The translations under genes were made by a program, and so were the position numbers. The notes under the pieces were generated by a model. It ran no database searches, was not told where the DNA came from, and saw nothing but the letters and a program-made list of their open reading frames with translations. Positions 1,840 through 50,597 of a DNA stretch of 64,000 nt are shown in pieces. The stretch is taken from assembly GCF_004801305.1 (NCBI RefSeq), contig NZ_SSOD01000002.1:62001-126000 (forward strand), written 5' to 3'. The stretch is from Pseudothauera rhizosphaerae (GTDB taxonomy: Bacteria; Pseudomonadota; Gammaproteobacteria; Burkholderiales; Rhodocyclaceae). Numbering within the stretch: the stretch's first letter is position 1; each line of letters begins with the position of its first letter.

Positions 1840-1938
1840 CCACCACGGATGGCACGCGGACAGCCCTGCCGCCGACGATGCAGCGCCGGCGCACTCACCG
1901 GATAAGTAGCAAGATACGGGCCGATCCACCGGGCCGAC

Positions 1939-3375
1939 TCAGACCTCGTAGCCTTCGTCCCGGTACTGCTGCAGCTTGTAGCGCAGGGTACGTTCGGAAA
2001 TCCCAAGCTTTTCAACGGTTTTCTTGCGCGAGCCGCCGAACTCGCGCAACGTTGAGAGGATGTGCTCCCGCTCCAGGTCCTTCATGTTGGCTGGCCGCGC
2101 GGACGGCGCGGCGGCGACGGGCGGCAAGGGAGCGGCAATATTTGCCGCTGCGGCACTCGCCCACTGGACGGCGGGGGGCGCTTGCCAGGCCGGCGCGGCC
2201 GATGCGGGCTGCGCCGGCGCCGGCATCGACACTGCCGCCTCCCCGCTCCAGTGGGGCAGGCACAGGCGCACGGTCTCGGGCAGCACGCTGTCGCCGGTGG
2301 TCAGGATCAGCACGCGGTGCATGGTGTTTTCCAGTTCGCGCACGTTGCCCGGCCAGTGGTAGGCCTGCAGCAACGCTTCGGCCGCGGGCGAGATGTGGGC
2401 CTGGCGCTTGAGGCGTTCCCCGTGGCGGGCGAGGAAGTGGCGGGCGAGCGGCAGCACGTCGCCGGGGCGCTCGCGCAGGGCGGGAATGGCGAGCGGGAAG
2501 ACGTTGAGACGGTAGTACAGGTCCTCGCGGAAGCGCCCGGCGGCGATCTCGCGCAGCATGTCCCGGTTGCTGGTGGCGAGCACGCGGATGTCGAGTTCCA
2601 CCGGTTTCTTGCCGCCCACCCGCTCCACTTCCCGCTCCTGCAGCACGCGCAGCAGCTTGGCCTGCAGGCCCAGGGGCATCTCGGAGATTTCGTCGAGCAG
2701 GATGGTGCCGTCCTGGGCCTGCTCGAACTTGCCCGGCTGGGCGCTCTGGGCGCCGGTGAAGGCGCCCTTTTCGTAGCCGAACAGGGTGGCTTCCAGCAGG
2801 TTCTCGGGAATGGCCGCACAGTTGATGGCGACGAAGGGCCCGCGCGCGCGCTCCGAATGGTGGTGGATGTAGCGCGCGAACACTTCCTTGCCGGTGCCGG
2901 ATTCACCGGTGAGCAGCACGGTGGCGTCGGTTTCCGCGACCCGCGCGGCGAGCGCGAGCAGGTTGCGGGTGTGGGGGTCCTCGGCCACGGTGTCGTCGGC
3001 CGAGGGCGGCACCGCGGCGTAGCGGCGCACGTGTTCGAGCAGCACGTCGGGCTCGAAGGGCTTCATCAGGAAGTCGCAGGCGCCGCCGCGCATGGCCGCC
3101 ACCGCCTTGTCCACGTCGCCGTAGGCGGTCATCAGCAGCACCGGCAACTGCGGCTGGCGGCTGCGCACCTCACCCAGCACCTGCAGGCCGTCCATGGGCT
3201 GCATGCGCAGGTCGGTGACCACCAGATTGAAGCTTTGCCGCTCCAGCTCGGCCAGCGCCGCCGGGCCGCCATCCACGCCGGTGACGCCGTGGCCGGCCAT
3301 CTCCAGCGTGAGGCAGACCGCGTCGCGCAGGGCTTCGTCGTCCTCGACGACCAGGATGTTGAGTTGTTCGATCAT
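1939..3375 (-). CDS. fleR: sigma54-dependent flagellar response regulator FleR/FlrC
   Basis: 478 residues with three domains. The receiver has acidic pocket EDD near residue 11 and phosphoacceptor D55 in VVTDLRM. The AAA+ sigma54-interaction domain has Walker A GESGTGKE at 157-164 and the sigma54-contact loop GAFTGA at 204-209. The C-terminal Fis-type helix-turn-helix contains SRKKTVEKLGISERTLRYKL. It overlaps the upstream kinase gene by four bases, giving a coupled two-component operon. In Pseudomonas and Vibrio this regulator activates basal-body and hook promoters. A Pro/Ala-rich linker of about 60 residues separates AAA+ and HTH domains. A perfect 17-bp dyad lies inside the linker-coding DNA (2132-2148). 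Confidence 0.93.
   Translation of the reverse strand: MIEQLNILVVEDDEALRDAVCLTLEMAGHGVTGVDGGPAALAELERQSFNLVVTDLRMQPMDGLQVLGEVRSRQPQLPVLLMTAYGDVDKAVAAMRGGACDFLMKPFEPDVLLEHVRRYAAVPPSADDTVAEDPHTRNLLALAARVAETDATVLLTGESGTGKEVFARYIHHHSERARGPFVAINCAAIPENLLEATLFGYEKGAFTGAQSAQPGKFEQAQDGTILLDEISEMPLGLQAKLLRVLQEREVERVGGKKPVELDIRVLATSNRDMLREIAAGRFREDLYYRLNVFPLAIPALRERPGDVLPLARHFLARHGERLKRQAHISPAAEALLQAYHWPGNVRELENTMHRVLILTTGDSVLPETVRLCLPHWSGEAAVSMPAPAQPASAAPAWQAPPAVQWASAAAANIAAPLPPVAAAPSARPANMKDLEREHILSTLREFGGSRKKTVEKLGISERTLRYKLQQYRDEGYEV
2132..2148. promoter_or_regulatory. 17-bp dyad GCGGCA-N5-TGCCGC inside fleR
   Basis: GCGGCAATATTTGCCGC is a perfect dyad of the class found beside several flagellar sigma54 promoters in this window. 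It lies about 290 bp upstream of the fliE promoter, a workable enhancer distance, although it is within a coding region. Function is inference. Confidence 0.4.
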
Positions 3376-4553
3376 GATTCGGCCTTGCCGTCGGTGTCGT
3401 TGCCTGCGTCACCGGCGGGCAGCGGGACGCTGAGCGTGAAGGTGGAGCCCTTGCCGGGCGCGGATTCCAGCGCGATCTCGCCGCCGTGGGCACGGGCCAC
3501 GCCGCGGGCGATGGCGAGCCCGAGGCCCGTGCCTTCGGCGCGGGTGGTAAAGAAGGGGTCGAACAGGCGCTCCTGCACCGCCGGCTCTATGCCGCGGCCG
3601 GTGTCGCGCACGGCGAACGCCACCTCGTCACCCGCCTGGCGCACGTGGCATTCGACCCGCCCGCCGGCTTCGGTGTGCTGGATGGCGTTTTCCAGCAGGT
3701 TGGTGAGCGCGCCGGCCAGCGCCTTGCGGTCGCCGTAAAGCTGCAGTTCGCCGCAGTCGCACTGGCTGGTGAATTCGACCTGGCGTGCGCGCGCCACCGG
3801 TTCCAGGGTGTGGGCGAGTTCGGCGGCCAGTTCGCACACGCCGAAATACTGCCGCCCCAGGCTGTCGCCGCGGGCGAACAGCAGCATGTCGCGGATCAGG
3901 CGTTCCAGGTAGCGCAGGCGCTCGATGGCCCGGTCGGCCACCCTGGTGCGCTCGGCGGGGCCCAGTTCGGGCTGGCGCAGGTTGCCGGTATACAGGAGCG
4001 CCGCGGCCAGCGGCGTGCGCAACTGGTGGGCGAGGCCGGCCACCATCTCGCCCATGGCCGCGAGGCGCTCGTTGCGCTCCGCGGTGAGGCGCATGCGGTG
4101 GGTCTCGGTGATGTCGTGCAGCAGCAGGATGCGCTCCTCACCGGACTCCAGCGCGGTTTCCGACACCGACAGGCGGCGCGGGCCGTCGGCCAGTTCGATG
4201 TTCAGTTCGCCGGGCGTCTCGGTGGCCTGCAGCGCGGCGGCCACCTCCACCCACCTGCGCCCGGTGATGCCGGTGCCGAACAGGATCTCTGCGGCGCGGT
4301 TGACCTGCACCAGCGTGCCGGCCCGGTCCAGCACCACCACGCCCGCCGGCAGAGCGCCCATGAGCACGGTCAGGCGTTCGGTGAGTTGCTCGACCCGCCC
4401 CTGCAGCCCGTTGTAGGCTTGGGAGAGCTCTTCCGAGGCGCGGCTGAACAGTTGGAAGGCTTCGGCCAGTTGCGCGGCATCCAGCCGCGGCGCGGCGCCC
4501 GCACTCGCCGGGGACGGCGCGGGATCGGCTGCGGAGTGCGGCTGGGTGGGCAT
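3372..4553 (-). CDS. fleS: Flagellar sensor histidine kinase FleS/FlrB
   Basis: 393 residues from the ATG at 4553, which has a GGGAG ribosome site; the frame continues upstream without conserved sequence. A helical N-terminus is followed by a PAS-like domain (LMGALPAGVVVLDRAGTLVQVNRAAE), a HisKA dimerisation domain with H-box GLAHQLRTPLAAALL, and a HATPase domain with N-box (NLLENAIQHT) and G-boxes (DTGRGIEP, GTGLGLAIARG). No membrane segments are visible, so it is cytosolic, as FleS/FlrB usually is. It is the partner of FleR, whose start overlaps its stop. A TAGACT -10-like element with TTACCA sixteen bases upstream (4587-4614) could be its promoter. Confidence 0.92.
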   Translation of the reverse strand: MPTQPHSAADPAPSPASAGAAPRLDAAQLAEAFQLFSRASEELSQAYNGLQGRVEQLTERLTVLMGALPAGVVVLDRAGTLVQVNRAAEILFGTGITGRRWVEVAAALQATETPGELNIELADGPRRLSVSETALESGEERILLLHDITETHRMRLTAERNERLAAMGEMVAGLAHQLRTPLAAALLYTGNLRQPELGPAERTRVADRAIERLRYLERLIRDMLLFARGDSLGRQYFGVCELAAELAHTLEPVARARQVEFTSQCDCGELQLYGDRKALAGALTNLLENAIQHTEAGGRVECHVRQAGDEVAFAVRDTGRGIEPAVQERLFDPFFTTRAEGTGLGLAIARGVARAHGGEIALESAPGKGSTFTLSVPLPAGDAGNDTDGKAES

Positions 4554-4626
4554 CGACGGGGCTCCCGGACAGTTTTCCACGGCTGGCAGTCTAGCCGCCG
4601 CGGGGTGTATGGTAACCGGCAAACAG

Positions 4627-4643
4627 GCGGCAAAAAATGCCGC
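4627..4643. promoter_or_regulatory. 17-bp dyad GCGGCA-N5-TGCCGC upstream of fliF
   Basis: GCGGCAAAAAATGCCGC has perfect 6-bp arms. It lies in the divergent fleS-fliF intergenic region, six bases upstream of the fliF -24 element. Candidate binding site for the FleR-type activator (inference). Confidence 0.55.
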
Positions 4644-4649
4644 TTTTCC

Positions 4650-4665
4650 CGGCATCGGATTTGCG
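4650..4665 (+). promoter_or_regulatory. sigma54 promoter of fliF operon
   Basis: CGGCATCGGATTTGCG has GG-N10-GC spacing and a good -12 TTGC. It is 55 bases upstream of the fliF ATG. A second, weaker GG-N10-GC match overlaps the dyad at 4617-4632. Confidence 0.7.
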
Positions 4666-4719
4666 CGTGCGGGCAGACAATGCCGCCATCCGTCAAAGGG
4701 ACCGCAACAGGAATCCAGC

Positions 4720-6384
4720 ATGGCCACTGCAGACACCACCGCCGATGCCGCCGCGGGCGCCTCGCAGGCACCGGGCTCGCCGCTTCAGCAGGTCATCCAG
4801 AACATCAAGGCCCTCGACCAGCGCCAGAAGCTGGCCGCGGGGGCGCTCCTCGCCCTGCTCGTGGCGCTGGTGATCGGGGCGCTGCTGTGGAACCGGGAGC
4901 CGGCCTATTCCACGCTGTTCGCCAATTTCGACGAGCGCGACGGCGGCGACATCGTGGCCGCGCTGCAGCAGCAGAACGTGCCCTACCGCCTCTCGCCCAC
5001 CGGCAACGCGATCCTGGTGCCTACCGCCCAGGTCCACGAGGTACGCCTGCGCCTGGCCGCCGCCGGGCTGCCCAAGGGCGGGCAGGTCGGCTTCGAGATC
5101 ATGGAAACGCAGAAGCTGGGCGTTTCCCAGTTCCACGAACAGGTCAATTACCAGCGCGCCCTCGAAGGCGAGTTGTCGCGCACCATCCAGTCCGTCGCCT
5201 CGGTGGCCAGTGCGCGCGTGCATCTGGCCATGCCCAAGCAGACCGCCTTCCTGCGCGACGACCAGAAGCCGACCGCCTCGGTCATGGTCAACATGCGCCC
5301 CGGCCGGGTGCTGGACAGCGCGCAGATCGCCGGCATCGTGCACCTGGTGTCGTCCAGCGTGCCACGCATGGTCGAATCCGGCGTGAGCATCGTGGACCAG
5401 AACGGCACCCTGCTCACCCGCCGGCCCGACGACGACGGCCGGCGCGGGCTGGACCCCAAGCAACTGCGCTACATCGAGGAAGTGGAGGCGGGCTACATCC
5501 GCCGCATCGAGAACATCCTGACGCCCATGCTGGGCTCCGCCAACTTCAGCGTACAGGCCACCGCCGACATCGACTTCAACGAAGTCGAGCAGACCGCGGA
5601 AACCTACAAGCCCAACCCGGCGCCCGAACAGGCCATCCGCAGCCAGCAGATCAACGAATCCCAGGAGCGCGAAGGCGGCCCCCAGGGCGTGCCCGGCGCC
5701 CTCACCAACCAGCCGCCGGTGCCGGCGACCGCACCCATCACCGCACCGCCGGTCGACGGCGGCACCGGCGACAACGGGGTGACGCAGAAGACCCGTTCCG
5801 CCGTCATCAACTACGAGGTGGACCGCACCATCCAGCACGTGCGCCAGTCCCTCGGCCAGGTCAAGCGCCTGTCCGTGGCGGTGGTGGTCAACCACCGCAG
5901 CGAGACCGACGCCGACGGCAAGCGTGTGAACGTGCCGCTCACCGAGCAGGAGGTGGCGCAGATCACCCGCCTGGTACGGGAAGCGATGGGCTTCAATGCC
6001 GCCCGCGGCGACAGCCTGAACGTGGCCGCCAGTTCCTTCGTCACGCCCGAAGCGGCCCCGGTGCCGCCGTGGAAGGAACCGGAAGTGGTCGAGATGGGCA
6101 AGGAAGGCCTGCGTTATCTCTTCATCCTGCTGGCGGTGCTGATCGCCTACTTCGCCATCGTCCGCCCGCTGCTGCGCGTGGTGATGCCGCCCAAGCCGGA
6201 AGCCGAGGACGAAGAGGAAGGCGAAGAGGAAGACGCCGAGGTGAGCCTGTCCGCCGCGGCGCTGGCCGGTGAAACCTACGAACAGCGCCTCGAACGGGCG
6301 CGCGAACTGGCGCGCGACGAACCGAAGCTGGTCGCCGATCTGCTCAAGCACTGGCTGGGCGTGAACGAGGAGGGCCGCAAATGA
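4720..6384 (+). CDS. fliF: Flagellar MS-ring protein FliF
   Basis: 554 residues from the ATG at 4720. The first membrane span is around residues 30-50 ([20 protein letters not shown]). The secretin-like ring-building motifs follow ([34 protein letters not shown]), then a Pro-rich periplasmic loop and a second membrane span ([23 protein letters not shown]). The acidic cytoplasmic tail ends with the FliG-binding segment. FliF forms the MS ring on which the motor and export gate assemble. It overlaps fliG by four bases (ATGA) and leads the fliFGHIJ operon. Confidence 0.96.
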
Positions 6385-7385
6385 ACACGACGCCCGAACA
6401 AGGCCTGGAAAAGGCCGCCCTGCTGCTGCTGACGCTGGGTCCGGACGAGGCGGCCGAGGTGCTCAAGCACATCGGCCCGCGGGAAGTGCAGAAGCTCGGC
6501 ATGAGGATGGCCACCCTGCCGCCCCAGCCCCGCAGCCGCGTGGAAGAACTGCTGGACGAACTGGAAGACCACGCGCGCAAGGGCGCGGCCATCCACGCCG
6601 ACGAGGAGCAGATCCGCGAGATGCTCACCAAGGCCCTCGGCGACGAGCGCGCGGCGCATCTGCTGTCGCGCATGCTGAGCGGCTCGGACACCGCCGGCAT
6701 CGAGAGCCTGAAGTGGATGGACGCACCCACCGCGGCCGACCTGATCAAGAACGAACACCCGCAGATCATCGCCACCATCCTGGTGCACCTGGAGTTCGAC
6801 CAGGCCGGCGAAATCCTCAAGTATTTCCCGGAACGCCTGCGCAACGACGTGGTGCTGCGCATCGCCACGCTGGACGGCGTGCAGCCGCAGGCCCTCAAGG
6901 AACTCAACGACGCCCTCACGCGCATGCTGTCGGGCGCCTCGTCGGTGAAGAAGGCCGCCATGGGCGGCGTGCGCCACGCGGCGGAGATCCTCAACTACGT
7001 GGGCACCGCCGCGGAGACCGCGGTCATCGACAACGTGCGCGAATACGATCCGGACCTGGCGCAGAAGATCCTCGACGAGATGTTCGTGTTCGAGAACCTG
7101 ATGGACATCGACGACCGCGGCATCCAGACCATCCTGCGCGAGGTGCAGTCCGATTCCCTCATCGTCGCCCTCAAGGGCGCCGCGCCCGAACTGCGCGAGA
7201 AGATCTTCAAGAACATGTCCAGCCGCGCCGCCGACATGCTGCGCGAGGATCTGGAGGCCAAGGGCCCGGTGCGCCTGTCCGAGGTGGAGGCCGAACAGAA
7301 GGAAATCCTCAAGATCGTCCGCCGCCTGGCGGAGGAAGGCCAGATCATGCTCGGCGCCAAGGGAGGCGAAGATGCCTTCGTCTGA
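6381..7385 (+). CDS. fliG: Flagellar motor switch protein FliG
   Basis: 334 residues, the usual length. The N-terminal FliF-binding part, armadillo-like middle domain with an EHPQ motif ([14 protein letters not shown]), and C-terminal domain carrying the charged torque helix ([22 protein letters not shown]) are all recognisable. FliG is the rotor protein that contacts the stator and transmits CheY-driven switching from FliM. Its start overlaps the fliF stop. Confidence 0.96.
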
Positions 7386-7403
7386 GCCTGAACGGAGCGT
7401 GCG

Positions 7404-8165
7404 ATGAGCATCTCGCGCCACCAGGCGGTGGGCGCCTACCGGCGCTGGGAGCCGCCCTCCTTCGACGAGCGGGCCGAGACGCCGGCGGTGGAAGCGCCGG
7501 CCGCCGACCCCGAACCGGACACCCCGCCCGCCGAAGCCGAAAGCCTGCTGCCGCCCGGCATCAAGCTGCCCACCGCCGAGGACATCGAGCGCCTGCAGGA
7601 GGCCGCGCGTGCCGAAGCCCATGCCGAGGGCCATGCGGAAGGCCGTGCTGCGGGCCATGCGGAAGGCCGTACCGAAGGCTATGCGGCCGGCCTGGAAGAA
7701 GGCCGCAAGGCCGGCTACGACGAAGGCCGCGCCCAGGCACAGGCCGAGGCCGAACGCTTCGCCGGCCTGGTGGGCGAACTGGATGCGGCCTTCGCCACGC
7801 TGGACCAGGGCGTGGCCGAGGAACTGATGGGCCTCGCCCTGGCGCTGACCCGCAAGATGGTGCGCGAAACCTTCGCCAGCCGCCCGGAGTCCGTCATCGA
7901 CACCCTGCGCGCGGCGCTGCAGGAACTGCCGCAGAACGACACCCGCATCCGCCTGCACCCGGACGATGCCGCCCTGGTGCGCGACTACCTGGGCGACCAA
8001 CTCGCCCACGGCGGGCACCGCCTGCTGGAGGACGACACGGTGACGCGCGGCGGCTGCTTGGTGGAAGCCGGCGGCACGCAGATAGACGCCACCGTCGAGA
8101 CGCGCTGGCGGCGCATCGTCGAAAGCCTCGGGCGCAGCGAAACCCGGTGGGAAGACCCGGCATGA
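7404..8165 (+). CDS. fliH: Flagellar assembly protein FliH
   Basis: 253 residues. The centre carries the FliH hallmark: about ten four-residue AxxxG-type steps with small residues at helix crossings ([15 protein letters not shown] and continuing to about residue 110). The C-terminal FliI-binding domain follows. FliH is the peripheral stalk and negative regulator of the FliI ATPase. The repeats are visible in the DNA as tandem copies of a short unit at about 7616-7730. The stop overlaps the fliI start by four bases. Confidence 0.92.
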
Positions 8166-9568: not shown

Positions 9569-9596
9569 TCCGCCGCCCCGTCCCAAGGAGTCCTGA

Positions 9597-10043: not shown

Positions 10044-10057
10044 GACCCGCCGGGGAC

Positions 10058-10073
10058 TGGCATGCCGCTTGCT
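10058..10073 (+). promoter_or_regulatory. sigma54 promoter of fliK
   Basis: TGGCATGCCGCTTGCT is a near-consensus -24/-12 element with exact GG-N10-GC spacing in the fliJ-fliK gap. It ends 36 bases before the fliK ATG, so fliK and possibly fliLMNOPQR can be transcribed independently of fliF. I see no 17-bp dyad beside it. Confidence 0.82.
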
Positions 10074-22274: not shown

Positions 22275-22290
22275 TGCAATAAGCTTGCCA
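22275..22290 (-). promoter_or_regulatory. sigma54 promoter of flgKL
   Basis: On the minus strand TGGCAAGCTTATTGCA is an almost ideal -24/-12 element. It lies 38 bases upstream of the flgK ATG. Confidence 0.87.
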
Positions 22291-22298: not shown

Positions 22299-22315
22299 GC
22301 GGCAAATTCCGCCGC
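22299..22315. promoter_or_regulatory. 17-bp dyad upstream of flgKL promoter
   Basis: GCGGCAAATTCCGCCGC keeps the outer GCGGC/GCCGC arms with one mismatch in the sixth pair. It sits eight bases upstream of the -24 element; a further near-copy lies inside flgJ at 22964-22980 (GCGGCAGCTTTTGCCGT). Candidate activator site. Confidence 0.5.
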
Positions 22316-22320: not shown

Positions 22321-23388
22321 TCAGGCCGCGAGGGCGCTCTTCAGCGTGCTGCCGCCGATCACGCCAGCCAGCTTGGCGGCGTAGCGGGGGTCGGTGGCAT
22401 AGCCGGCCTGCTGCAGGCCGCGGGCGAAGCCGGCGGCGTCGGTCTGGCCGAGCACGCCCGCATAGCGCGGGCTGTCGGAGAGCAGGCGGGCGTAATCGCG
22501 GAAGGCCTCCGTGTAGGAACCGTAGCTGCGGAAGCGCGCCTGCTCACTGTAGGACGTGCCGCCGGCGTACTCCTTGACCGTGCGGGACACGGTCTCGCCC
22601 TGCCAGGCGCTGCCGGCCTTGATGTTGAAGAGGTTGTAGCTGGAGCGGCCGTCCGCATGGTGCAGGATCTTCTCGCCCCAGCCGGTTTCCAGCGCCGCGT
22701 GGGCGACGATGAAACGCGCCGGGATGCCGGTCTCCCGGCTCACGGCCTGGGCGTGGGGCCAGATTTCGCGCACGAAGGCTTCCTTGCCGGAAGGCGCCGT
22801 CCCCCCGCCCTCCTCCACCGCTGCGGAAGCCGCCACGGCGGACGTGCCGCCGACGGCGGCCCGCGCGGAGCCTCGCGCTGCCTGCAATTGCGCGATCAGC
22901 GCGCCGACCGGGTCGTCGCCGGCCGTTTCCGTTGCGGGCAGCAATCCTTGCCGCTCCAGGCTGGCGGCAGCTTTTGCCGTCTGGGCCGCCACGGCCAGGT
23001 CCAGGCCGTCCAGGCCGGTGCCACCCGACGCAGAGCCGCCCGTTTCCAGCGCGTCGATGGCGCTGCCGCCGCTCTTGCCGTTGAGCCCGCCGAGTTGGCG
23101 GAACAGCACGTCGCTCATGCCGTTGTTGCGGCTGTGGGCGAGCTGCAGGGCCAGTTGCTGATCGAGCAGGGACTGGTAGGTGCGGGTGTGCTCGTTGTCG
23201 AACAGGCCGTTCTGCGGCGTGGCCTGGCGCATGGCCTTGAGCGCCATCTGCAGGAACAGGGCTTCGAACTGCTTGGCGGCGGCACGCAGGGTCTCCGGCG
23301 AATCCGGCTGCTCGCGGGAGAGCCGCTGCAGGTCGCTGAGCGAACGCGGGTCGAGCGCGTTGAGCTGGAAGCCGCCATCGATGGCCAT
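22321..23388 (-). CDS. flgJ: Flagellar rod assembly protein / peptidoglycan hydrolase FlgJ
   Basis: 355 residues, dual-domain. The N-terminal rod-cap domain (LRAAAKQFEALFLQMALKAMRQA, then LFDNEHTRTYQSLLDQQLA) is followed by a linker of about 90 residues and a glucosaminidase domain at about 190-350. The acidic residue in AHAALETGWGEKIL is the presumed catalytic Glu. FlgJ caps the growing rod and opens the peptidoglycan. It lies nine bases after flgI. Confidence 0.95.
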   Translation of the reverse strand: MAIDGGFQLNALDPRSLSDLQRLSREQPDSPETLRAAAKQFEALFLQMALKAMRQATPQNGLFDNEHTRTYQSLLDQQLALQLAHSRNNGMSDVLFRQLGGLNGKSGGSAIDALETGGSASGGTGLDGLDLAVAAQTAKAAASLERQGLLPATETAGDDPVGALIAQLQAARGSARAAVGGTSAVAASAAVEEGGGTAPSGKEAFVREIWPHAQAVSRETGIPARFIVAHAALETGWGEKILHHADGRSSYNLFNIKAGSAWQGETVSRTVKEYAGGTSYSEQARFRSYGSYTEAFRDYARLLSDSPRYAGVLGQTDAAGFARGLQQAGYATDPRYAAKLAGVIGGSTLKSALAA

Positions 23389-29838: not shown

Positions 29839-29998
29839 GGCTTCACCTCGTATTCCCGGTGCCCGCCGCGTGCATCCGCCAGCCCGGCACCGGTTCCATT
29901 GCACCTTCCATGCCAGCGATCCTACTTCCGCGACCTCCGCCCCCTTGGCGCGATAAGACCGGTAAACCGCGGTCTATTCGCCGGCTGATTTCGCCGCT

Positions 29999-30021: not shown

Positions 30022-30038
30022 GCGGCAAGCTTTGCCGC
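30022..30038. promoter_or_regulatory. 17-bp dyad in the flgB-flgA divergent region
   Basis: GCGGCAAGCTTTGCCGC has perfect arms. It is placed to serve flgB, flgA or both. Candidate FleR-type activator site. Confidence 0.5.
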
Positions 30039-33720: not shown

Positions 33721-33794
33721 CCCACCCCCGGTAGCGACCAATGATCGCCACCGGGTATATACTCGCGGTATCCATCGTCTACCGGAGGACCGCC

Positions 33795-34025
33795 ATGGAA
33801 ACCGCCAAGCTCTTCACCAACGGCCGCAGCCAGGCTGTGCGGCTGCCCAAGGAATACCGCTTCGAAGGCGACGAAGTGTTCATCAAGCGCGTCGGCGACG
33901 CGGTCGTGCTGCTGCCGCGCCGCGGCTGGGGCACGCTGTTCGGCGCCCTCGACCAGTTCGAACCGGGTTTCACCTTGGAACGCCGGCAACCGCCCCAGCA
34001 GCAGCGCGAGGACCTGCTGCCGTGA
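33795..34025 (+). CDS. vapB: VapB/VagC-type antitoxin (AbrB-like)
   Basis: 76 residues from the ATG at 33795 (GGAGG ribosome site). METAKLFTNGRSQAVRLPKEYRFEGDEVFIKRVGDAVVLLPR is a swapped-hairpin AbrB/MazE DNA-binding domain. The C-terminal tail would cover the toxin active site. It overlaps vapC by four bases. A TATACT -10-like element lies at 33758-33763. Confidence 0.9.
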   Translation: METAKLFTNGRSQAVRLPKEYRFEGDEVFIKRVGDAVVLLPRRGWGTLFGALDQFEPGFTLERRQPPQQQREDLLP

Positions 34026-34462
34026 GATTCATGCTCGATACCAACATCTGCATCTATCTCATCAACCAGCGTCCCGCCCATGTGCGCGGGCACTTCGAAC
34101 AGCATCCGGTAGGCGACATCGGTATCTCGGCGATCACCGCCGGCGAACTGGCCTACGGCGTGGCGAAGAGCGGATCGGCGCGCAACCGTGCTGCGCTGGA
34201 AACCTTCCTGCTGCCGCTGGAAATCGCCCCTTTCGACGACCGGGCCATGTGGCGCTACGCCGAAGTGCGCTGTGCCCTGGAAACCGCCGGCACGCCCATC
34301 GGCCCCCTCGACACCCAGATCGCCGCCCATGCGCTGGCACTGGGCTGCACGCTGGTTACCAACAACCTGCGCGAATTCGACCGCGTTGCCGGCCTCGCGC
34401 TGGAAAATTGGGCGGAGCCGCTGCTCCACGAAACACTCGCCCCATACATCTCCTCCTCGTAA
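34022..34462 (+). CDS. vapC: VapC-type PIN-domain RNase toxin
   Basis: 146 residues from a GTG overlapping the antitoxin stop (a Met also lies at codon 4). PIN acidic residues are visible: D6 in MLDTN, E42 in ITAGELAYGV, D97 in GPLDTQIAAHAL. The fourth conserved position reads LVTNNLREFDRV. VapC members cut specific tRNAs or rRNA. The cassette ends in a strong hairpin and sits between parE and parC. Confidence 0.92.
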   Translation: MRFMLDTNICIYLINQRPAHVRGHFEQHPVGDIGISAITAGELAYGVAKSGSARNRAALETFLLPLEIAPFDDRAMWRYAEVRCALETAGTPIGPLDTQIAAHALALGCTLVTNNLREFDRVAGLALENWAEPLLHETLAPYISSS

Positions 34463-41510: not shown

Positions 41511-41537
41511 GTAGTCTGTCTCCGGGCTCCGCCGCGA

Positions 41538-42311: not shown

Positions 42312-42439
42312 CCAGGTGACCTGAATTTTCTTCCTGCGGCTGGTTTCGGACGCCGGACCGTCTCCAGACCCGGCGGCCCGCCATTTTCCCGCACCGGAGC
42401 CGGGATGACCAGTTGAATATGTCAGGCCCAGCATGATCC

Positions 42440-43240: not shown

Positions 43241-43242
43241 GA

Positions 43243-44712: not shown

Positions 44713-44839
44713 GGTGTTTCTCCGACTCCGACGACCGCGCTCGCAGCGCAGGATGGTTCCGATTATGGCCGCCGCCCGGCCCCGGGATAGGGCGGAATAA
44801 ACCGGATTTCCCCCGCCTATTCCCCCGCTGCGGAAGACC

Positions 44840-46936
44840 TCAGGCCGCCGCGCCTATCATCGCGGTGACGCGGATGGTGCGCGCTTCGGGCACTTCGGAA
44901 TTGGCGATGACCTTGAGCGAGGGCACGGCGCGGCGCAGGAAGCGCGACAGCAGCATGCGCAATTGCACCGGCACCAGCAGCACCGGCGGCAGGCCGATGT
45001 CCTCCTGGCGCTGGGCGATCTGGGCGGTCTGGCGCAGCAGCGTGTCGGCCAGCCCCGGTTCGATGGCGCCGCCCTCGCCGCCGGCGCTCATGGCCTGCAG
45101 CAGGATGCGCTCCAACCCCGGTTCCAGGGCCATGACCTGCAGTTCCGCGTTGCCCGGGAACAGGCTCTGCACGATGGCGCGGCCGAGGGCCTCGCGCACC
45201 TTGCCGGTGAGTTCCACCGGGTCCTGGCTGCGCACCGAGTGTTCGGCGAGCACCTCGATGATGGTGCGCATGTCGCGGATGTTGACGCCCTCGTCCAGCA
45301 GGTTCTGCAGCACGCGCTGCACCGTGGACACCGGCAGCAGCTTGGGCACCAGGTCTTCGATGAGCTTGGGCGATTCCTTGCCCACATGGTCCAGCAGGGC
45401 CTGGGTTTCCTGGCGGCCGAGGAGTTCGGCGGCGTGGTCGAGGATGAGGTGGTTGAGATGGGTCGCCACCACGGTGCTGGCGTCCACCACCGTGTAGCCC
45501 AGCGCGTGCGCCTGCTCCCGCTGGCCGGCGTCGATCCAGTAGGCCGGCAGGCCGAAGGCCGGGTCCTTGGTCTCGCGCCCCTGCAGCGGGCCGGTGACGC
45601 GGCCCGGGTTGATCGCCAGGTACTGGCCGGGGTAGGCCTCGCCGCCGCCCACCTCCACGCCCTTCAAGGCGATGCGGTAGGCGTTGGGCTTGAGTTCCAG
45701 GTTGTCGCGGATATGCACCGGCGCGGACAGGAAGCCCACCTCCTGGGCGAACTTCTTGCGCAGGCCGCGGATGCGCTTGAGCAGTTCCCCGTCCTGGCCC
45801 TTGTCCACCATGGGGATGAGCCGATATCCCACCTCCAGGCCCAGCACGTCCACCGGCGCCACGTCGTTCCAGCTCGCTTCCTGCGCTTCCTGGGCCGGCG
45901 CAGCGGCGGCAGCGGCCTGGGCCGCGGCTTCGGGCGTCTCGGCGGAGGCCTGGCGCTTCTTCATCTGCTGCCAGCCCAGCGTCGCGATGAGCGCCGCCAG
46001 CAGCAGGAAGACGAAGTTGGGCATGCCGGGAATCATGCCCAGCACGCCGATGATGGCGGCGGTGAGGAACATCACCTGCGGGTTGGCGAACACCTGGCCG
46101 ATGACCAGGCTGCCGATGTCCCCTTCGTCCCCCACGCGGGAGACCACCAGGCCGGCGGCCACCGAGATGATCAGCGCCGGAATCTGCGCCACTAGGCCGT
46201 CGCCGATGGTCAGCAGGGCATAGGTGTGCCCGGCGTCGCCGATGGCCATGTCGTGCTGGATGACGCCGATGAAGAGCCCGCCGATGATGTTGATGATCAG
46301 GATCAGGATGCCCGCCACCGCGTCGCCGCGCACGAACTTGGAGGCACCGTCCATGGCGCCGAAGAAGTCGGATTCCTGGGCGATCTCCTTGCGGCGGCGC
46401 TTGGCTTCCTTCTCCTCGATGAGACCGGCGTTCAGGTCCGCGTCGATGGCCATCTGCTTGCCCGGCATGGCGTCCAGGGTGAAGCGCGCGCTCACTTCGG
46501 CGATGCGCCCGGCGCCCTTGGTGATCACCACGAAGTTGATCACCGTGAGGATGACGAACACCACGATGCCGACGGCCACGTTGCCGCCCACCAGCACGGC
46601 GCCGAAGGCCTCGATGACCTTGCCCGCCGCGTCGCCGCCCGCGTGGCCTTCCATGAGCACGATGCGGGTGGAGGCCACGTTCAGCGACAGGCGCAGCAGC
46701 GTGGTGACCAGCAGCACGGTGGGGAAGACGGAGAATTCCAGGGGCTTCTTCGTGTACATCGCCACCATCATCACCATCACCGACACCGCGATGTTGAAGG
46801 TGAAGAACACGTCCAGCAGGAACACCGGCAGCGGCAGCACCATCATGGACAGGATCATGACGATGAGCAGCGGCGCCGCGAGCTGGCGCATGCGGGCCGG
46901 GGTGAGCAGTTCACGCAGGCTGAGGATGTCGTTCAT
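44840..46936 (-). CDS. flhA: Flagellar export gate protein FlhA
   Basis: 698 residues. Eight or so membrane spans fill the first 330 residues, with the conserved FHIPEP-type loop (RIAEVSARFTLDAMPGKQMAIDADLNAGLI). The cytoplasmic domain has substrate/chaperone docking and the block TVVDASTVVATHLNHLILDHAAELLGRQETQ. It is the ion-coupled core of the export gate. It overlaps flhB by four bases. Confidence 0.97.
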   Translation of the reverse strand: MNDILSLRELLTPARMRQLAAPLLIVMILSMMVLPLPVFLLDVFFTFNIAVSVMVMMVAMYTKKPLEFSVFPTVLLVTTLLRLSLNVASTRIVLMEGHAGGDAAGKVIEAFGAVLVGGNVAVGIVVFVILTVINFVVITKGAGRIAEVSARFTLDAMPGKQMAIDADLNAGLIEEKEAKRRRKEIAQESDFFGAMDGASKFVRGDAVAGILILIINIIGGLFIGVIQHDMAIGDAGHTYALLTIGDGLVAQIPALIISVAAGLVVSRVGDEGDIGSLVIGQVFANPQVMFLTAAIIGVLGMIPGMPNFVFLLLAALIATLGWQQMKKRQASAETPEAAAQAAAAAAPAQEAQEASWNDVAPVDVLGLEVGYRLIPMVDKGQDGELLKRIRGLRKKFAQEVGFLSAPVHIRDNLELKPNAYRIALKGVEVGGGEAYPGQYLAINPGRVTGPLQGRETKDPAFGLPAYWIDAGQREQAHALGYTVVDASTVVATHLNHLILDHAAELLGRQETQALLDHVGKESPKLIEDLVPKLLPVSTVQRVLQNLLDEGVNIRDMRTIIEVLAEHSVRSQDPVELTGKVREALGRAIVQSLFPGNAELQVMALEPGLERILLQAMSAGGEGGAIEPGLADTLLRQTAQIAQRQEDIGLPPVLLVPVQLRMLLSRFLRRAVPSLKVIANSEVPEARTIRVTAMIGAAA

Positions 46937-48093
46937 TCAAGCGGTTCCGTGGTTCGGTCGGGCGCGCCCGGGTCCATGCCTGCGGGCACCTGCAGGGCGG
47001 TGGGCGCCTGGGGCGGCAGGCCGCCCTGGGCCATCCAGTTGTTGAGCTGATAGACGTAGGCCAGCACTTCGGCCACCGCGGTGTACAGCCCGGCGGGGAT
47101 GGCCTGTTCCAGTTCGCAATGGGCGTAGAGGGCGCGGGCCAGGGGCGGCGCCTCCAGCATCGGCACGTCGTGCTCGCGGGCGATCTCGCGGATCTTCAGG
47201 GCGGTTTCGCCGCGGCCCTTGGCCACGACGACCGGAGCGCCCATCTTCGCGGCGTCGTACTTGAGCGCCACGGAGAAGTGGGTCGGGTTGGTGACCACCA
47301 CGTCCGCCTCGGGCACCGCGGCCATCATGCGCTTGCGCGCCATCTCCCGCTGCATCTGGCGGATGCGCCCCTTGAGCTGCGGGTCGCCTTCCTGTTCCTT
47401 GCTCTCGCGCTTGACCTCTTCCTTCGTCATGCGCAGCTTCTTGTGGTATTGCCAGAGCTGGAAGGGCACGTCCAGCAGCGCCAGCAGGCCCAGACTGGCG
47501 GCGATCATCAGGGTGGTGAACAGCACCGTCTCGGCGAAGTCCGGCATGCCCACTTCCAGCGGCTCGATCATCAGGTCGAAGATGTGGTCGCGGGTGTTCC
47601 ACAGCACCATTGCGCCGATGCCGCCCACCAGCAGCGCCTTCAGGGCGGCCTTGACCATCTCCATCAGGCCGTGGGTGGAGAACATCCGCCCCAGGCCCTT
47701 GAGCGGGTCCATGCGGTCGAACTTGAGGCCGAGCACCTTGGGCGAGAACACCAGCCCGCCCAGCGCGATGGGCGCGGCCACCGCCGCCAGCAGCAGGGCG
47801 CCGAACAGGGGCAGCATGGTGATCAGCGCGCCGCCCAGGATGTCGTGCAGGCGGTCGAGCAGCAGCGTGTGGTCGAAGGCGGCCTCGCGCTCGAAGTGGA
47901 AGCCGCGGCGGATCAGCATATGCATGCGCTCGGCGAACCAGCCGCCCAGCATCCACAGCGTCGCCACCCCGGTCATGATGACCAGGAAGGTGGACAGCTC
48001 ACGCGACTGCGGAACCTGCCCTTCCTCGCGGGCCTGCTCCAGTCGCCTGGCTGAGGGCTGTTCTGTCTTCTCGAGATCGCTGTCTTCGGCCAT
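46933..48093 (-). CDS. flhB: Flagellar export specificity switch FlhB
   Basis: 386 residues with four membrane spans and the self-cleaving NPTH motif at 269-272 (VVVTNPTHFSVALKYD), the switch responding to FliK. The N-terminal EKTEQPSARRLEQAREEGQVPQSRE is also typical. A C-terminal extension is Pro-rich. First gene of its operon; a 9-bp-arm dyad lies upstream at 48167-48189. Confidence 0.97.
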   Translation of the reverse strand: MAEDSDLEKTEQPSARRLEQAREEGQVPQSRELSTFLVIMTGVATLWMLGGWFAERMHMLIRRGFHFEREAAFDHTLLLDRLHDILGGALITMLPLFGALLLAAVAAPIALGGLVFSPKVLGLKFDRMDPLKGLGRMFSTHGLMEMVKAALKALLVGGIGAMVLWNTRDHIFDLMIEPLEVGMPDFAETVLFTTLMIAASLGLLALLDVPFQLWQYHKKLRMTKEEVKRESKEQEGDPQLKGRIRQMQREMARKRMMAAVPEADVVVTNPTHFSVALKYDAAKMGAPVVVAKGRGETALKIREIAREHDVPMLEAPPLARALYAHCELEQAIPAGLYTAVAEVLAYVYQLNNWMAQGGLPPQAPTALQVPAGMDPGAPDRTTEPLE

Positions 48094-48166
48094 GGCCGGC
48101 TCCGGGCCCGTCCCGCGACGCTGGCGTCAGCGCGGACGGATGTGGACACGCGGCAATTATGGCCGG

Positions 48167-48189
48167 CCACCGGCAAGTCCTGCCGGTGG
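48167..48189. promoter_or_regulatory. Dyad upstream of flhB
   Basis: CCACCGGCA / TGCCGGTGG arms with the 5-base spacer AGTCC. The core CGGCAAGTCCTGCCG is identical to that at 50582-50596. It is a variant of the 17-bp flagellar dyad. I find no canonical GG-N10-GC promoter on the flhB side. Confidence 0.45.
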
Positions 48190-48235
48190 ATAAGGCGGGG
48201 TAAAACGGTTCAATTCGGCGCTTGGGGCGCGGGAG

Positions 48236-48694
48236 TCACTGCGGCGCCGGCAGGCGCTCCAGGCCGCGGATGCGTGTCCCCGCGGCGATGCCCTTGTCCG
48301 CGAACCAGCCCTTGTTCATCTCCAGCGCGTAGCGGGCGGCGTTGGCCGCGCAGTGGCTTTCCTCGCTGTGGGGCGTCATGTCGGCGATGTTGAGGATGCG
48401 CCCGTCCCCGTCGATGAAGGCCACCGACAACGGCACGTAGGTGTTCTTCATCCACATGCAGTGGCGCGCATCCTGGGGAAAGACGAACACCATGCCGCGC
48501 TGCCCCGCCAGCATGCGCCGGTTCATCAGGCCGATCTGGCGCGTCTGCGGCGTGTGCGCCAGTTCCGCCTCGATGCGGTACATGCCCGCACCCAGCTCGA
48601 ACACCGGCATGGCCTGCTGGGCGGCCGCGGGCAGGGCGGGCAGCAGGGCCGCCAGCGCGGCAAGGGCGAAGCGCGGAAGAACGGAGGGCGTCAT
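48236..48694 (-). CDS. DUF192 family periplasmic protein
   Basis: 152 residues from the ATG at 48694 (an upstream in-frame ATG at 48727 is less likely). The signal peptide ends LPAAAQQ. The DUF192 core is IEAELAHTPQTRQIGLMNRRMLAGQRGMVFVFPQDARHCMWMKNTYVPLSVAFID ... GWFADKGI. The family is widespread, periplasmic and poorly characterised. It lies downstream of the small nafY-linked gene on the same strand and could be co-transcribed. Confidence 0.88.
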   Translation of the reverse strand: MTPSVLPRFALAALAALLPALPAAAQQAMPVFELGAGMYRIEAELAHTPQTRQIGLMNRRMLAGQRGMVFVFPQDARHCMWMKNTYVPLSVAFIDGDGRILNIADMTPHSEESHCAANAARYALEMNKGWFADKGIAAGTRIRGLERLPAPQ

Positions 48695-48752
48695 GGCAAG
48701 GGCAGGCGGATGGACGACGGCCCGCATTCTACGCCGCCATCCGCCGCCCCGT

Positions 48753-49019
48753 TCAACGCATGACGGCCAGCGCCGCCACCGCCGCGGTGAGCGCCGGCAC
48801 CACTTCTGCGCCGTCGCCCGCGGCGAGCAGCTCCTGCGCGTGCTCGATCAGCGCCTGCGCTTCGTCTTCCTGGTTGCCCACCTTCAGCTCCGCGGCGAAG
48901 CGGCCGATGCTGCCCGCCACCAGGCGGGTGATGCGGCCGTTCTCGCCGGTCACTTTCGAGGTCCTGATGGCGTTGGCGATCAGGTCGGTGACGATGGCGT
49001 GGTAATCCTTGTCGGCCAT
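48753..49019 (-). CDS. Small helical protein downstream of nafY, unknown function
   Basis: 88 residues, mainly helical (DYHAIVTDLIANAIRTSKVTGENGRITRLVAGSIGRFAAELKVG). No signal, no Cys, no recognised domain. It starts 10 bases after nafY and is therefore probably on the NifA/sigma54-controlled transcript. A role in nitrogenase maturation is inferred from position only. Confidence 0.7.
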   Translation of the reverse strand: MADKDYHAIVTDLIANAIRTSKVTGENGRITRLVAGSIGRFAAELKVGNQEDEAQALIEHAQELLAAGDGAEVVPALTAAVAALAVMR

Positions 49020-49029
49020 GGCAGCCTCC

Positions 49030-49767
49030 TCAGTCGTCCACCATCTCGGCGTTGTAGTTCTTCAGCCGCTGGCCGGCCGCCACCCCGAGGATCTTGGCCA
49101 GCCAGGGCGGCGGCGAATTGCTCATCATGTGCTGGAACTCGGCCAGCACCTCGGCCGCCGCGCCGCCCTGGATGCGCTTGATGGGGTAGATGCCGCCCTT
49201 GATCACCTTGGCCGCCGCCGGACCGCCCACCGAGACCACATAGACCACGTGGCAGTCGGAGATGAGCTGCACCCGGTAGCCGTTCTTGTCCTCGGCGAAA
49301 TCGGCCTCCAGCGCGTCCCGCACGCCCACCAGCCGGACTTCCGTGGCGGACACCTGGTAGACCAGGTAGCGGATACAGGAACCGAAATGCCCGTTGAGCG
49401 CCTCGCCGCTGTCGGAGGCCAGGGCCACGCGCACCGAGGCGGGCATGTCGCCGTCCGCGTAGTCCTGCACCGGGGGCAGCATCTCGCCGTCGCTGTCGCC
49501 CCACAGGATGCGCACGGCGAGCTTCATCGCCTCCAGGCCAATGCCGATGTCCTCGCCGTCCTCCTCGCCGTCGGCACTGGCGAAGGCGGTCTTGAGGTCG
49601 GTGACGGTAACCGTGCGCAGGTCGTCCACATCGATCTGGCGGTCGCTGCCGAGGCGGTTCTGCAGCACGTCTATCAGTTGCGGCAGGGAAATGCCGGGCA
49701 TGGCCCGCGCCGCCAGCGCCACGCGCAGCGCGGCATCACGGGTGATGGGGGGTTCGCTCTCTTGCAT
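49030..49767 (-). CDS. nafY: NafY/NifX-family FeMo-cofactor-binding protein
   Basis: 245 residues from the ATG at 49767 (AGGAG ribosome site), close to the size of Azotobacter NafY. The N-terminal helical domain (about 1-95: RVALAARAMPGISLPQLIDVLQNRLG, then DDLRTVTVTDLKT) looks like the NafY apo-nitrogenase-binding part. The core domain (about 110-225) is the dinitrogenase Fe-Mo-cofactor fold with NGHFGSCIRYLVYQVS. H127 in GHFG is the likely cofactor ligand, and a Cys occurs in SDCHVVYVV. Upstream lie a sigma54 promoter, an IHF site and a NifA UAS, so expression should follow nitrogen fixation. No other nif genes are in the window. Confidence 0.85.
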   Translation of the reverse strand: MQESEPPITRDAALRVALAARAMPGISLPQLIDVLQNRLGSDRQIDVDDLRTVTVTDLKTAFASADGEEDGEDIGIGLEAMKLAVRILWGDSDGEMLPPVQDYADGDMPASVRVALASDSGEALNGHFGSCIRYLVYQVSATEVRLVGVRDALEADFAEDKNGYRVQLISDCHVVYVVSVGGPAAAKVIKGGIYPIKRIQGGAAAEVLAEFQHMMSNSPPPWLAKILGVAAGQRLKNYNAEMVDD

Positions 49768-49802
49768 GGGGAAGGCTCCTCTGTCGGGGTTTTCCCTTGC
49801 AA

Positions 49803-49818
49803 AGCATGATGGGTGCCA
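49803..49818 (-). promoter_or_regulatory. sigma54 promoter of nafY
   Basis: On the minus strand TGGCACCCATCATGCT keeps an exact TGGCAC -24 and GG-N10-GC spacing. It lies 36 bases upstream of the nafY start, with start site near 49793. Confidence 0.82.
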
Positions 49819-49844
49819 AACTGCTGCGGCACGAAACTTCTTAG

Positions 49845-49857
49845 CAAGCAATTGATT
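49845..49857 (-). promoter_or_regulatory. IHF site between NifA UAS and nafY promoter
   Basis: On the minus strand AATCAATTGCTTG matches the IHF consensus WATCAA-N4-TTR exactly, in an AT-rich bend region placed between enhancer and promoter as in nif promoters. Confidence 0.65.
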
Positions 49858-49905
49858 TTATTGATTTAATATTGCCGACGTACGTAGATCGCGGCTCTGC
49901 GGCCA

Positions 49906-49921
49906 TGTCGCATGCTCGACA
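49906..49921. promoter_or_regulatory. NifA upstream activator sequence of nafY
   Basis: TGTCGCATGCTCGACA is a TGT-N10-ACA element, itself a near-palindrome, about 115-130 bases upstream of the predicted start site: the classic NifA UAS form and distance. Confidence 0.78.
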
Positions 49922-49957
49922 GCCATCCGCTTTTTCCCGGCGGATGGAGCAAAGCCG

Positions 49958-50524
49958 TCAGCGCCCCCCGGTCGCCGGCAGACGCGCTTCCACCTCCCGC
50001 CACTGCCCGGGCGCCAGGCCCTCCAGCAGCCACGGGCCGATCGCCACCCGCAGCAGGCGCAGCGTGGGATGGCCGACCTTGGCGGTCATGCGCCGCACCT
50101 GGCGGTTCTTGCCCTCGCGCAGCACGATCTCCAGCCAGCTCGTCGGCACCGTCTTGCGGAAACGCACCGGCGGATCGCGCGGCCACAGCCAGTCCGGCTC
50201 GGCCACGCGGCGCGCCTCGCACGGCCGGGTGACGAAATCGCCCAGGTCCACGCCCGCGCGCAGCGCGGCCAGCGCCGCCTCGTCCGGCTCGCCCTCCACC
50301 TGCACCAGATAGGTCTTGGGCAGCTTGTGGCGCGGGTCGGCGATGCGGTGCTGCAGGGTGCCGTCATCGGTGAGCAGCAGCAGGCCCTCGCTGTCGGTAT
50401 CCAGCCGGCCGGCGGCATACACGCCGGGCACCGGCACGCAGTCCTTCAGGGTCTGGCGGCCGTCCTCGGCGGTGAACTGGCACAGCACGCCGTAGGGCTT
50501 GTTGAGGAGGATCAGGCGGGACAT
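49958..50524 (-). CDS. rluE: 23S rRNA pseudouridine synthase RluE
   Basis: 188 residues from the ATG at 50524. The RsuA/RluB/RluE-type catalytic block [19 protein letters not shown] carries the catalytic Asp. [12 protein letters not shown] and [28 protein letters not shown] follow. Lack of an N-terminal S4 domain and the short length fit RluE (23S U2457). It is divergent from the HD-GYP gene. Confidence 0.9.
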
Positions 50525-50580
50525 GGTCACCGGTTGCAAACGGACGGCGCGAGGGTAACCCGAAAGGCGCTGCGCCGGGG

Positions 50581-50597
50581 GCGGCAAGTCCTGCCGC
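50581..50597. promoter_or_regulatory. 17-bp dyad abutting the HD-GYP gene promoter
   Basis: GCGGCAAGTCCTGCCGC, perfect arms, ends exactly where the -24 TGGCACG begins. Confidence 0.55.

Follow-up and report, generated by a model that had tools for sequence, protein, structure and literature searches.

A recurrent dyad at flagellar genes as a candidate FlrC operator, located inside flrC and nested in putative early promoters

Comparison of the window, by which we mean the whole 64-kb stretch of DNA analysed, with related genomes showed that copies of the dyad GCGGCA-N5-TGCCGC near flagellar genes follow the presence of flrBC, and that their geometry falls into two classes. The dyad most likely serves as the FlrC site, a candidate operator for this response regulator of the FlrBC pair. 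Based on sequence comparison, we judge it probable that late sigma54 genes would be activated, and early genes repressed, through this operator. We infer both the binding of FlrC to the dyad and the repression of the early genes, the evidence for repression being the position of the dyad. On balance, we also lean towards a wider reading, in which the enhancer driving the next operon is a moving part of the flrC coding sequence, the nesting at fliF and flhB forms a switch by which the late class turns off the early class, and the dyad has disappeared and re-emerged across genera.

The initial annotation listed perfect copies of the dyad at 2132, 4627, 30022 and 50581, and all four were present, versus a mean of 0.07 and a maximum of 1 in 100 dinucleotide shuffles of the window, as expected of a real motif. 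The whole 4.6-Mb genome held seven perfect dyads, four of them in the window; the binomial probability of this clustering (~1e-6) is post hoc, as the window was chosen for its dyads. Two of the other three shared a common centre in similar ORFs on contig C21, and the third lay within an ORF on contig C23. Among the variants that had been listed, those at 22299 and 22964 (one mismatch each) and 48170 (two mismatches) were retained, but the half-site at 1856, with two mismatches and a weight matrix score below 11, was at chance level and was dropped. Two further dyads were found, one on the flhB -10 (48150, score 17.4) and one forming a pair with 22964 (22938, score 14.8). Weak variants mean little by themselves, since 41 sequences in the window had two or fewer mismatches versus 25 expected. 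The description of all copies as lying in or near flagellar control regions was inexact: 2132 is within the flrC coding sequence, 22938 and 22964 are within flgJ, and 50581 is between an rluE-like gene and the HD-domain gene (Table 1).

Table 1. Features of the window discussed in the text
Feature	Coordinates	Strand	Remarks
fliE sigma54 promoter TGGCATGGCGGTTGCT	1824..1839	-	11/12 consensus positions
flrC	1939..3375	-	Response regulator, AAA+ sigma54 activator, Fis-type HTH; probable dyad reader
Perfect dyad in flrC	2132..2148		From codon 410, Ala-Ala-Asn-Ile-Ala-Ala, in linker between AAA+ lid and HTH; proposed fliE enhancer
flrB	3372..4559 (start approximate)	-	Sensor kinase; HisKA and HATPase_c; divergent from fliF
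FlhDC-box-like palindrome AAACAG-N16-CTTTTC upstream of fliF	4621..4648	+	Dyad fills centre
Perfect dyad between flrB and fliF	4627..4643		Centre 42 bp from ACAAT
Candidate fliF -10 GACAAT	4676..4681	+	Conserved as xACAAT/xAGAAT
flgK sigma54 promoter TGGCAAGCTTATTGCA	22275..22290	-	11/12
One-mismatch dyad adjoining flgK -24 box	22299..22315
Tandem one-mismatch dyads (22938, 22964) in flgJ	22938..22980		~0.7 kb upstream of flgK
flgB sigma54 promoter TGGCATGGAAGGTGCA	29900..29915	-	10/12, conserved
Perfect dyad, proposed flgB upstream enhancer	30022..30038		Centre 116 bp from -24 GG
Dyad CCGGCCATAATTGCCGC on flhB -10	48150..48166		Centred on CATAAT (48161-48156, - strand)
Second flhB dyad	48170..48186		20 bp upstream of first
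FlhDC-box-like palindrome GAATTG-N17-TTATCC upstream of flhB	48188..48216	-	55 bp upstream of -10
Perfect dyad abutting HD-domain gene promoter	50581..50597		Kept in 1/3 named relatives
HD-domain gene sigma54 promoter TGGCACGCTTCTCGCA	50598..50613	+	11/12; kept in 3/3 named relatives
HD-domain (HD-GYP-like) gene	50672..51832	+	PF13487

Summed over genomes, perfect dyads were about as frequent as the mirror control, with 295 versus 276 in the 51 genomes with FlrC and 32 versus 39 in the 10 genomes without it, and there was no clear genome-wide excess of the dyad over this control. The dyad signal is one of position rather than of total count, and the genome-wide scan that had been proposed as a refuting check must be read with that caution. 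The matrix score threshold applied to dyads varied by test (13, 14, 15 or 18).

The activator of FleR/FlrC type that the initial annotation had recognised in the window is flrC, on the evidence of its Pfam domains (Response_reg, residues 7-117; Sigma54_activat, 131-295; AAA_lid_14, 301-368; HTH_8, 432-471). The FlrC-type combination of a receiver, an AAA+ sigma54 domain, a Fis-type HTH and a linked kinase was complete, and the GAFTGA motif was found at residue 204 as well as in 32 of 41 family sequences. Among NCBIfam models, the window FlrC matched FlbD (NF050807) best, with a score of 414.7 that is below the curated cut-off of 750 bits.

Searches of 61 genomes of the family identified FlrC (E<=1e-100) in 51. 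Three genomes (G055, G002 and G048) are flagellated and have FliE, FliF, FlgB, FlgK and FlhC, with no FlrC at that threshold and no FlrB or FlrC match in their fliF loci. In the stretches read from these genomes, comprising the fliF (L236-L238) and flg (L241-L243) loci, there was no dyad scoring above 13. In these stretches the dyad was gone in all three flagellated genomes that lack flrBC beside fliF, a small sample (n=3) in which G002 is 83% complete. Two other genomes (G035 and G041) have flrB beside fliF and the fliF dyad was present in both; the flgB locus of G035 (L120) had no dyad. In other families of the class only two dyads were found in 38 flrC neighbourhoods, drawn from 74 other genomes with FlrC and including two loci (L214 and L216) with no readable FlrC frame. 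The FlrC proteins of those families mostly have a different recognition helix, although the correlation between HTH type and dyad is weak because both follow phylogeny. Shared ancestry likewise means that none of the counts across genomes given here are independent.

It is highly improbable, in our view, that a regulator we have not seen, such as a FleQ-like protein, takes the place of FlrC as reader of the dyad. The assignment to FlrC comes from sequence comparison, and the search for FleQ was one with no demonstrated positive control, as none of the 14 control genomes gave a clear FleQ (PF06490, the FleQ N-terminal domain, had matches in E. coli and Caulobacter only). Against such a regulator are the absence of dyads where flrBC is absent and the lack of any convincing FleQ match in the family: PF06490 matches above cut-off occurred in 36 of 61 genomes and were weak (best E 2.3e-7), and several fell on receiver domains, that of flrC itself among them. 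Of the two readers suggested by the initial annotation, the FleR/FlrC-type protein is hence the best candidate and FleQ was left without support. The proposed regulon also held in part, in that the dyads mark a flagellar set that is conserved in the family and only partly so in the order.

The dyad associated with fliE is usually located within flrC, at codons that differ by genus, or within fliE itself. It was present (score >13) in 38 of 40 flrC-fliE regions, obtained from the window and 40 neighbourhoods (L068-L107), one of which (L102) has neither fliE nor fliF, leaving n=40 for both genes. The two regions with no dyad (L098 and L107) also had no recognisable fliE sigma54 site. In 41 flrC sequences there were 41 dyads with a score above 14 versus 1.4 in synonymous shuffles, and 21 perfect dyads versus 0.27. 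Where second dyads occurred they were 19-24 bp from the first. Across genera the dyad was found at several flrC codons (in the AAA+ lid or the linker), in the gap, or within fliE. Outside the family, an flrC-internal dyad was present in 15 of 22 loci of the order (22 of the 23 loci retrieved, L290 having no readable frame, from 93 matching genomes), and 13 of these 15 were from two families.

Chance in a GC-rich genome, or conservation of Ala-rich segments at the protein level, would accord with the near-equality of dyad and mirror totals and with the finding that 39 of 41 intragenic flrC dyads in the family are in one frame. We nevertheless regard this explanation as hardly credible, based on the synonymous shuffles, the differing codons among genera, the use of two frames outside the family, and the fixed geometry of dyads at non-coding promoters. 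In addition, at least 26 of 32 instances of the dyad codon whose third base is free of the pattern ended in A or T, versus 21% elsewhere in flrC. We relied on this one codon because the figure for all dyad codons (A or T in 89 of 160) is in part forced by the pattern itself (GCA, NNT).

A dyad was also found near flgB in 25 of 30 family loci (score >14), at a variable distance. Two of the 25 distances (30 and 358) were set aside as outliers before the test, and the remaining 23 clustered at the helical repeat (R 0.76). For flgB and flgK, 30 loci each were retrieved, of 53 and 51 matching genomes, respectively. Binding at unusual positions, even ones downstream of the promoter, is a feature of both V. 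cholerae FlrC and P. aeruginosa FleQ. At the late sigma54 promoters (fliE, flgB, flgK and flagellin), one or two dyads occupied by FlrC dimers would act as a looping enhancer, which may be upstream or downstream of the promoter and is often in coding sequence, chiefly that of flrC. In the window's family, the flrC-internal enhancer dyad would encode Ala-Ala-x-x-Ala-Ala, and the presence of the dyad may thereby have shaped the protein.

At fliF and flhB the spacing of the dyads was fixed. There was no dyad in 14 of 40 fliF loci and 13 of 30 flhB loci (from 54 matching genomes). In 23 of 26 loci the centre of the fliF dyad and an ACAAT-like -10 were exactly 42 bp apart, and in 13 of 17 loci the flhB dyad had its centre on the -10. 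The left arm of the fliF palindrome is 55 bp upstream of the -10, and the flhB geometry is identical; these AT-rich palindromic arms appear to resemble the E. coli FlhDC box, and both promoters look like the FlhDC/sigma70 type. A sigma70 -35/-10 pair assembled by eye from the conserved TTGC and the ACAAT at fliF was rejected, as its spacing of 8-9 bp was unfit. FlhC was found in 47 of the 61 genomes. Looser FlhDC-like arms (10/12 matches, spacing 17) were present in 27 of 37 fliF regions from genomes with FlhC and in 7 of 7 from genomes without it, and only stricter arms combined with the fixed -10 spacing separated the two groups.

That FlhDC of this lineage recognises the dyad as part of its own site is, we believe, very unlikely. 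The fliF dyad is within an FlhDC-like palindrome, and all seven fliF loci counted as FlhC-negative have no dyad, G031 being placed among them despite a weak FlhC-like match above cut-off (E 9.8e-10). However, dyads in fliE were retained in four loci from genomes with no FlhC (L094, L095, L105 and L106), as well as in G031 (L097), which argues that the dyad is not FlhDC's own site. The genomes counted as FlhC-negative also kept dyads elsewhere. Moreover, flhB arms of the same type enclose other sequences, G055, which has FlhC and no FlrC, retains the fliF arms and not the dyad, and flgB dyads have no conserved arms.

A different possibility, which we consider unlikely, is that FlrC on the dyad solely activates, at fliF and flhB as elsewhere. 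Seven fliF promoters have the dyad followed at fixed spacing by a GGAAC-N4-CTTGC element that could be a sigma54 promoter, so activation would fit there too, and in the window the flgK and HD-domain gene dyads are promoter-proximal at good sigma54 sites. On the other hand, the -24 GG at fliF is missing in the window's clade, and a dyad on the -10, as at most flhB loci with a dyad, should block RNA polymerase. We therefore prefer repression by FlrC at these promoters, which look FlhDC-activated and sigma70-dependent and in which the dyad is locked in register, in the centre of the FlhDC-like box at fliF and, at flhB, either over the -10 or two turns further upstream. Active FlrC on the locked dyads would shut the early genes, such that the late activator turns off the early class. 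The box centre at fliF would thus hold another operator, unlike enterobacterial FlhDC class II promoters.

The dual role proposed for FlrC, as late sigma54 activator and early repressor, resembles that of Caulobacter FlbD, an NtrC-type protein described as activating middle sigma54 genes and repressing early fliF via ftr4 (PMC3930126, in part). It differs in having the linked kinase FlrB, and in that the early activator here looks FlhDC-like where that of Caulobacter is CtrA. Vibrio FlrC and Pseudomonas FleR, for which activation of sigma54 rod and hook genes is described (PMC7064773, in part), have the same architecture, kinase partner and role as the window FlrC; unlike those systems, this family has no convincing FleQ/FlrA and commonly has FlhC. 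Our literature search found no published site with this dyad within its reach, which did not extend to the primary FlrC and FlbD binding papers. Intragenic sigma54 promoters are reported in E. coli and Salmonella (PMC4591121 and PMC3844500, in part), but those are polymerase sites, whereas here the activator would have its site within the gene that encodes it. Among the Desulfovibrio operons for which no site was predicted, nearly half were concerned with flagella or motility (PMC4641369, in part). Sites hidden in genes may explain why flagellar sigma54 promoters seem to have no upstream sites. The dyad would give the flagellar activator of one beta-proteobacterial group a concrete operator candidate and would be a case of enhancer turnover between coding positions while the target promoter stays constant, and it makes late-to-early flagellar feedback testable through a few base changes.

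The initial annotation had four dyads 0-8 bp upstream of a GG-N10-GC element. This was accurate for flgK, where dyad 22299 is next to TGGCAAGCTTATTGCA at 22290, and for the HD-domain gene, where TGGCACGCTTCTCGCA begins immediately after the dyad. It was not so for flgB, whose good sigma54 site at 29915 is ~107 bp from dyad 30022, or for fliF, where the GG-N10-GC scores only 8/12 and its GG is lost in the closest relatives. As a norm, hugging of the -24 box was mostly wrong, since distances to sigma54 promoters vary and it is those at fliF and flhB that are fixed. The window dyads set hard against the sigma54 box at flgK and the HD-domain gene are a feature for which the two-class scheme gives no account. 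Among the 30 flgK loci, a dyad adjoining the -24 box was found besides the window only in L143. A dyad (score >14) was present in 21 of these loci, and in 14 of the 21, including the window, it was 0.6-0.8 kb upstream.

All four perfect copies of GCGGCA-N5-TGCCGC claimed in the initial annotation (2132, 4627, 30022 and 50581) were confirmed, against a mean of 0.07 and a maximum of 1 in shuffled sequence. A whole-genome scan identified seven perfect dyads in the 4.6-Mb genome; the other three each lie in an ORF, with no flagellar context seen. A looser genome scan, together with the 20 kb upstream of the window (L192), added two dyads in the same flagellar region. This looser scan also gave many matches elsewhere, with the mirror control even more frequent (36/32 vs 24/30), and therefore only strong, conserved sites carry weight; no clear excess was found in the genome-wide dyad total, a point against the scheme proposed below. 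One protein of the window has its nearest named relatives in Pseudothauera and Thauera, which makes an origin in the Rhodocyclaceae probable. On contig C21, dyads with an identical centre were observed in two ORFs that resemble each other and are separated by about 6.5 kb (L005, L006). One of them is shorter, and the pair looks like a duplicated or mobile gene. Two small adjoining ORFs at 33741-34462 of the window have, by eye, a VapB/VapC-type toxin-antitoxin look.

Dyads of the flagellar region (window coordinates unless prefixed L192)
Dyad	Score	Location	Associated promoter or gene
L192:11804	19.4	8.2 kb before window	51 bp before TGGCACGCATCTCGCT, good sigma54 site; flagellin gene downstream
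L192:15601	18.2	4.4 kb before window	upstream of TGGCACGAAACCTGCT, good sigma54 site; flaG/fliD region
2132		inside flrC, from codon 410, linker between AAA+ lid and HTH	0.3 kb upstream of fliE sigma54 promoter at 1839
4627		between flrB and fliF	
22299		adjoins flgK -24 box	flgK
22938/22964		inside flgJ	
30022		116 bp (centre to GG) from promoter	flgB promoter at 29915
48150 and 48170		at flhB	
50581		abuts sigma54 site	HD-domain gene

Counts for comparison were obtained from related genomes and are therefore not independent of one another; 40 flrC-fliE neighbourhoods (39 relatives and the window) were compared. The 3' part of flrC (nt 901 to the end, 20 kb in all) contained 21 perfect dyads. 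The initial 900 bp of flrC, fliF and the flrB body each contained none, and their one-mismatch dyads numbered 3, 3 and 1 (mirror controls 0, 2 and 1). Synonymous shuffles of 41 flrC sequences gave an expectation of 0.27 perfect dyads. By weight matrix, which was trained on 56 flrC- and fliF-region sites and is partly circular for those two regions, 41 dyads were found spread over 33 of the 41 sequences, vs 1.4 in synonymous shuffles. One dyad codon has a third base that the pattern does not fix; in at least 26 of 32 cases this base was A or T, compared to 21% for the rest of flrC. The place of the dyad varied, lying at flrC codons of about 320-337 (lid) or 386-421 (linker), in the flrC-fliE gap (where locus L096 has its best site, and L084 and L087 their second), or downstream of the promoter at fliE codons 58-63 (L094, L095, L097, L105 and L106). 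In total 38 of 40 regions had a dyad scoring above 13, and the two without one (L098 and L107) also had no GG-N10-GC element of at least 8/12 before fliE. The dyad was again within flrC at 15 of 22 loci from the order's other families, at about nt 1120-1190, with two families supplying 13 of the 15. As these copies occupy frames 0 and 2, an Ala-Ala motif of the protein does not by itself account for the dyad.

At flgB the dyad was present in 25 of 30 loci, 23 of them at 84 to 118 bp, with distances that cluster in step with the DNA helix (R 0.76 for a repeat of 10.5-11 bp; the best value was reached by 0 of 5000 uniform sets, phylogeny ignored). At flgK it was present in 21 of 30. In 14 of these it lay within an open frame, in frame 0, at 0.6-0.8 kb upstream (in the window this open frame is flgJ), and in the remainder at -140 to -168, -78, or -40 to -46. 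A set of 80 strong sites had 34 weaker-or-equal neighbours within 70 bp, 23 of these 19-24 bp away (strong-strong pairs counted twice), and the mirror control had none. The earlier claim that the dyad hugs the promoter held at flgK and the HD-domain gene but not at flgB. The scheme proposed below does not explain these hugging dyads, which count against it; at the HD-domain gene, the dyad was kept in one of three named relatives and the sigma54 box in all three.

The dyads at fliF and flhB were positioned differently. At fliF, where 26 of 40 loci had a dyad, an ACAAT/AGAAT-type element followed the dyad centre at a distance of exactly 42 bp in 23. The flanks of the dyad formed a RAATWG-N16-TATTC-like palindrome, and in most of the listed loci the left arm of this palindrome begins 54-55 bp ahead of the element. 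At flhB a similar palindrome occurs at an equal distance, with other letters enclosed. At spacing 16, with at most two matches per region, the 44 regions upstream of fliF gave 19 palindromes and the 30 flhB regions gave 15, compared to 5 and 3 in five-fold shuffles. The flhB dyad was present in 17 of 30 loci, 13 centred on the -10 and the other four exactly 18.5-19.5 bp upstream, and the window has both placements. The dyad was missing from a considerable fraction of the fliF and flhB loci, which also counts against the scheme. On the flrB strand at about 4590-4640, a possible -10, TACCAT, was seen by eye in several relatives 17 bp from a T run within the fliF dyad, so this dyad might reach into the flrBC promoter as well.

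We take the outer palindrome to resemble the E. coli FlhDC box. A gene for FlhC is present in 47 of the 61 family genomes, that of the window among them. None of seven fliF loci scored as lacking FlhC, one of which (G031) has a weak FlhC match, had the dyad (p 0.0002 ignoring phylogeny), and none had strict arms (11/12) with a -10 at 54-56 bp among the matches listed. Looser arms (10/12, spacing 17) were found in 27 of 37 fliF regions with FlhC and in all seven without it, and therefore arms alone prove nothing. Genomes with FlrC but without FlhC retained dyads.

Three flagellated genomes (G055, G002 and G048) with fliE, fliF, flgB, flgK and FlhC had no FlrC at 1e-100, no FlrB/FlrC match in their fliF loci, and no dyad above 13 in any of the fliF and flg stretches examined; in G055 the outer palindrome and -10 at fliF were kept and the dyad was gone. 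The fliF dyad was present in G035 and G041, which have flrB beside fliF, with none at the G035 flgB locus. Genome G043 had dyads inside flrB and fliE and none at fliF. In other families of the class, 38 neighbourhoods contained two dyads above 15. A helix position of FlrC was E in 41/41 family sequences, and P in 26/35 and E in 5/35 of those typed from other families of the class. The initial annotation had left the reader as FleR or a FleQ-like protein; these presence and absence patterns point to FlrC, the FleR/FlrC type. At the level of sequence, the comparisons showed conservation, two geometries and co-loss with FlrBC for the dyad, which is very probably FlrC's operator, a real one in a known kind of circuit.

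The arrangement, with intragenic moving enhancers and an operator, very probably that of FlrC, nested in an FlhDC-like box, appears unusual, and no description of it was found in the literature searched. An expression study of Azoarcus olearius mentions flhDC and flagellar genes and, in the part available, says nothing of FlrC sites (PMC8467165).

The two groups of dyads, roaming and locked, match a general rule. Looping enhancers of sigma54 activators tolerate changes of distance and side, and are therefore free to wander, coding DNA included; repressor sites must keep register. Based on this general knowledge, the roaming dyads at sigma54 promoters would be looping enhancers of FlrC and the locked dyads at fliF and flhB would be repressor sites, such that active FlrC would shut these early genes. 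We propose for FlrC the same double use as that of Caulobacter FlbD, which activates middle genes and represses the early gene fliF at ftr4 (PMC3930126). FlrBC-type signalling is reported to require the MS ring, rotor and export apparatus (PMC7064773). Both fliF and flhB belong to that early set, and their shutoff upon FlrC activation would therefore make sense. A second FlhB-like protein (37% identity) is encoded on a different contig (G000:C18:75784-76848) and may belong to a different export system.
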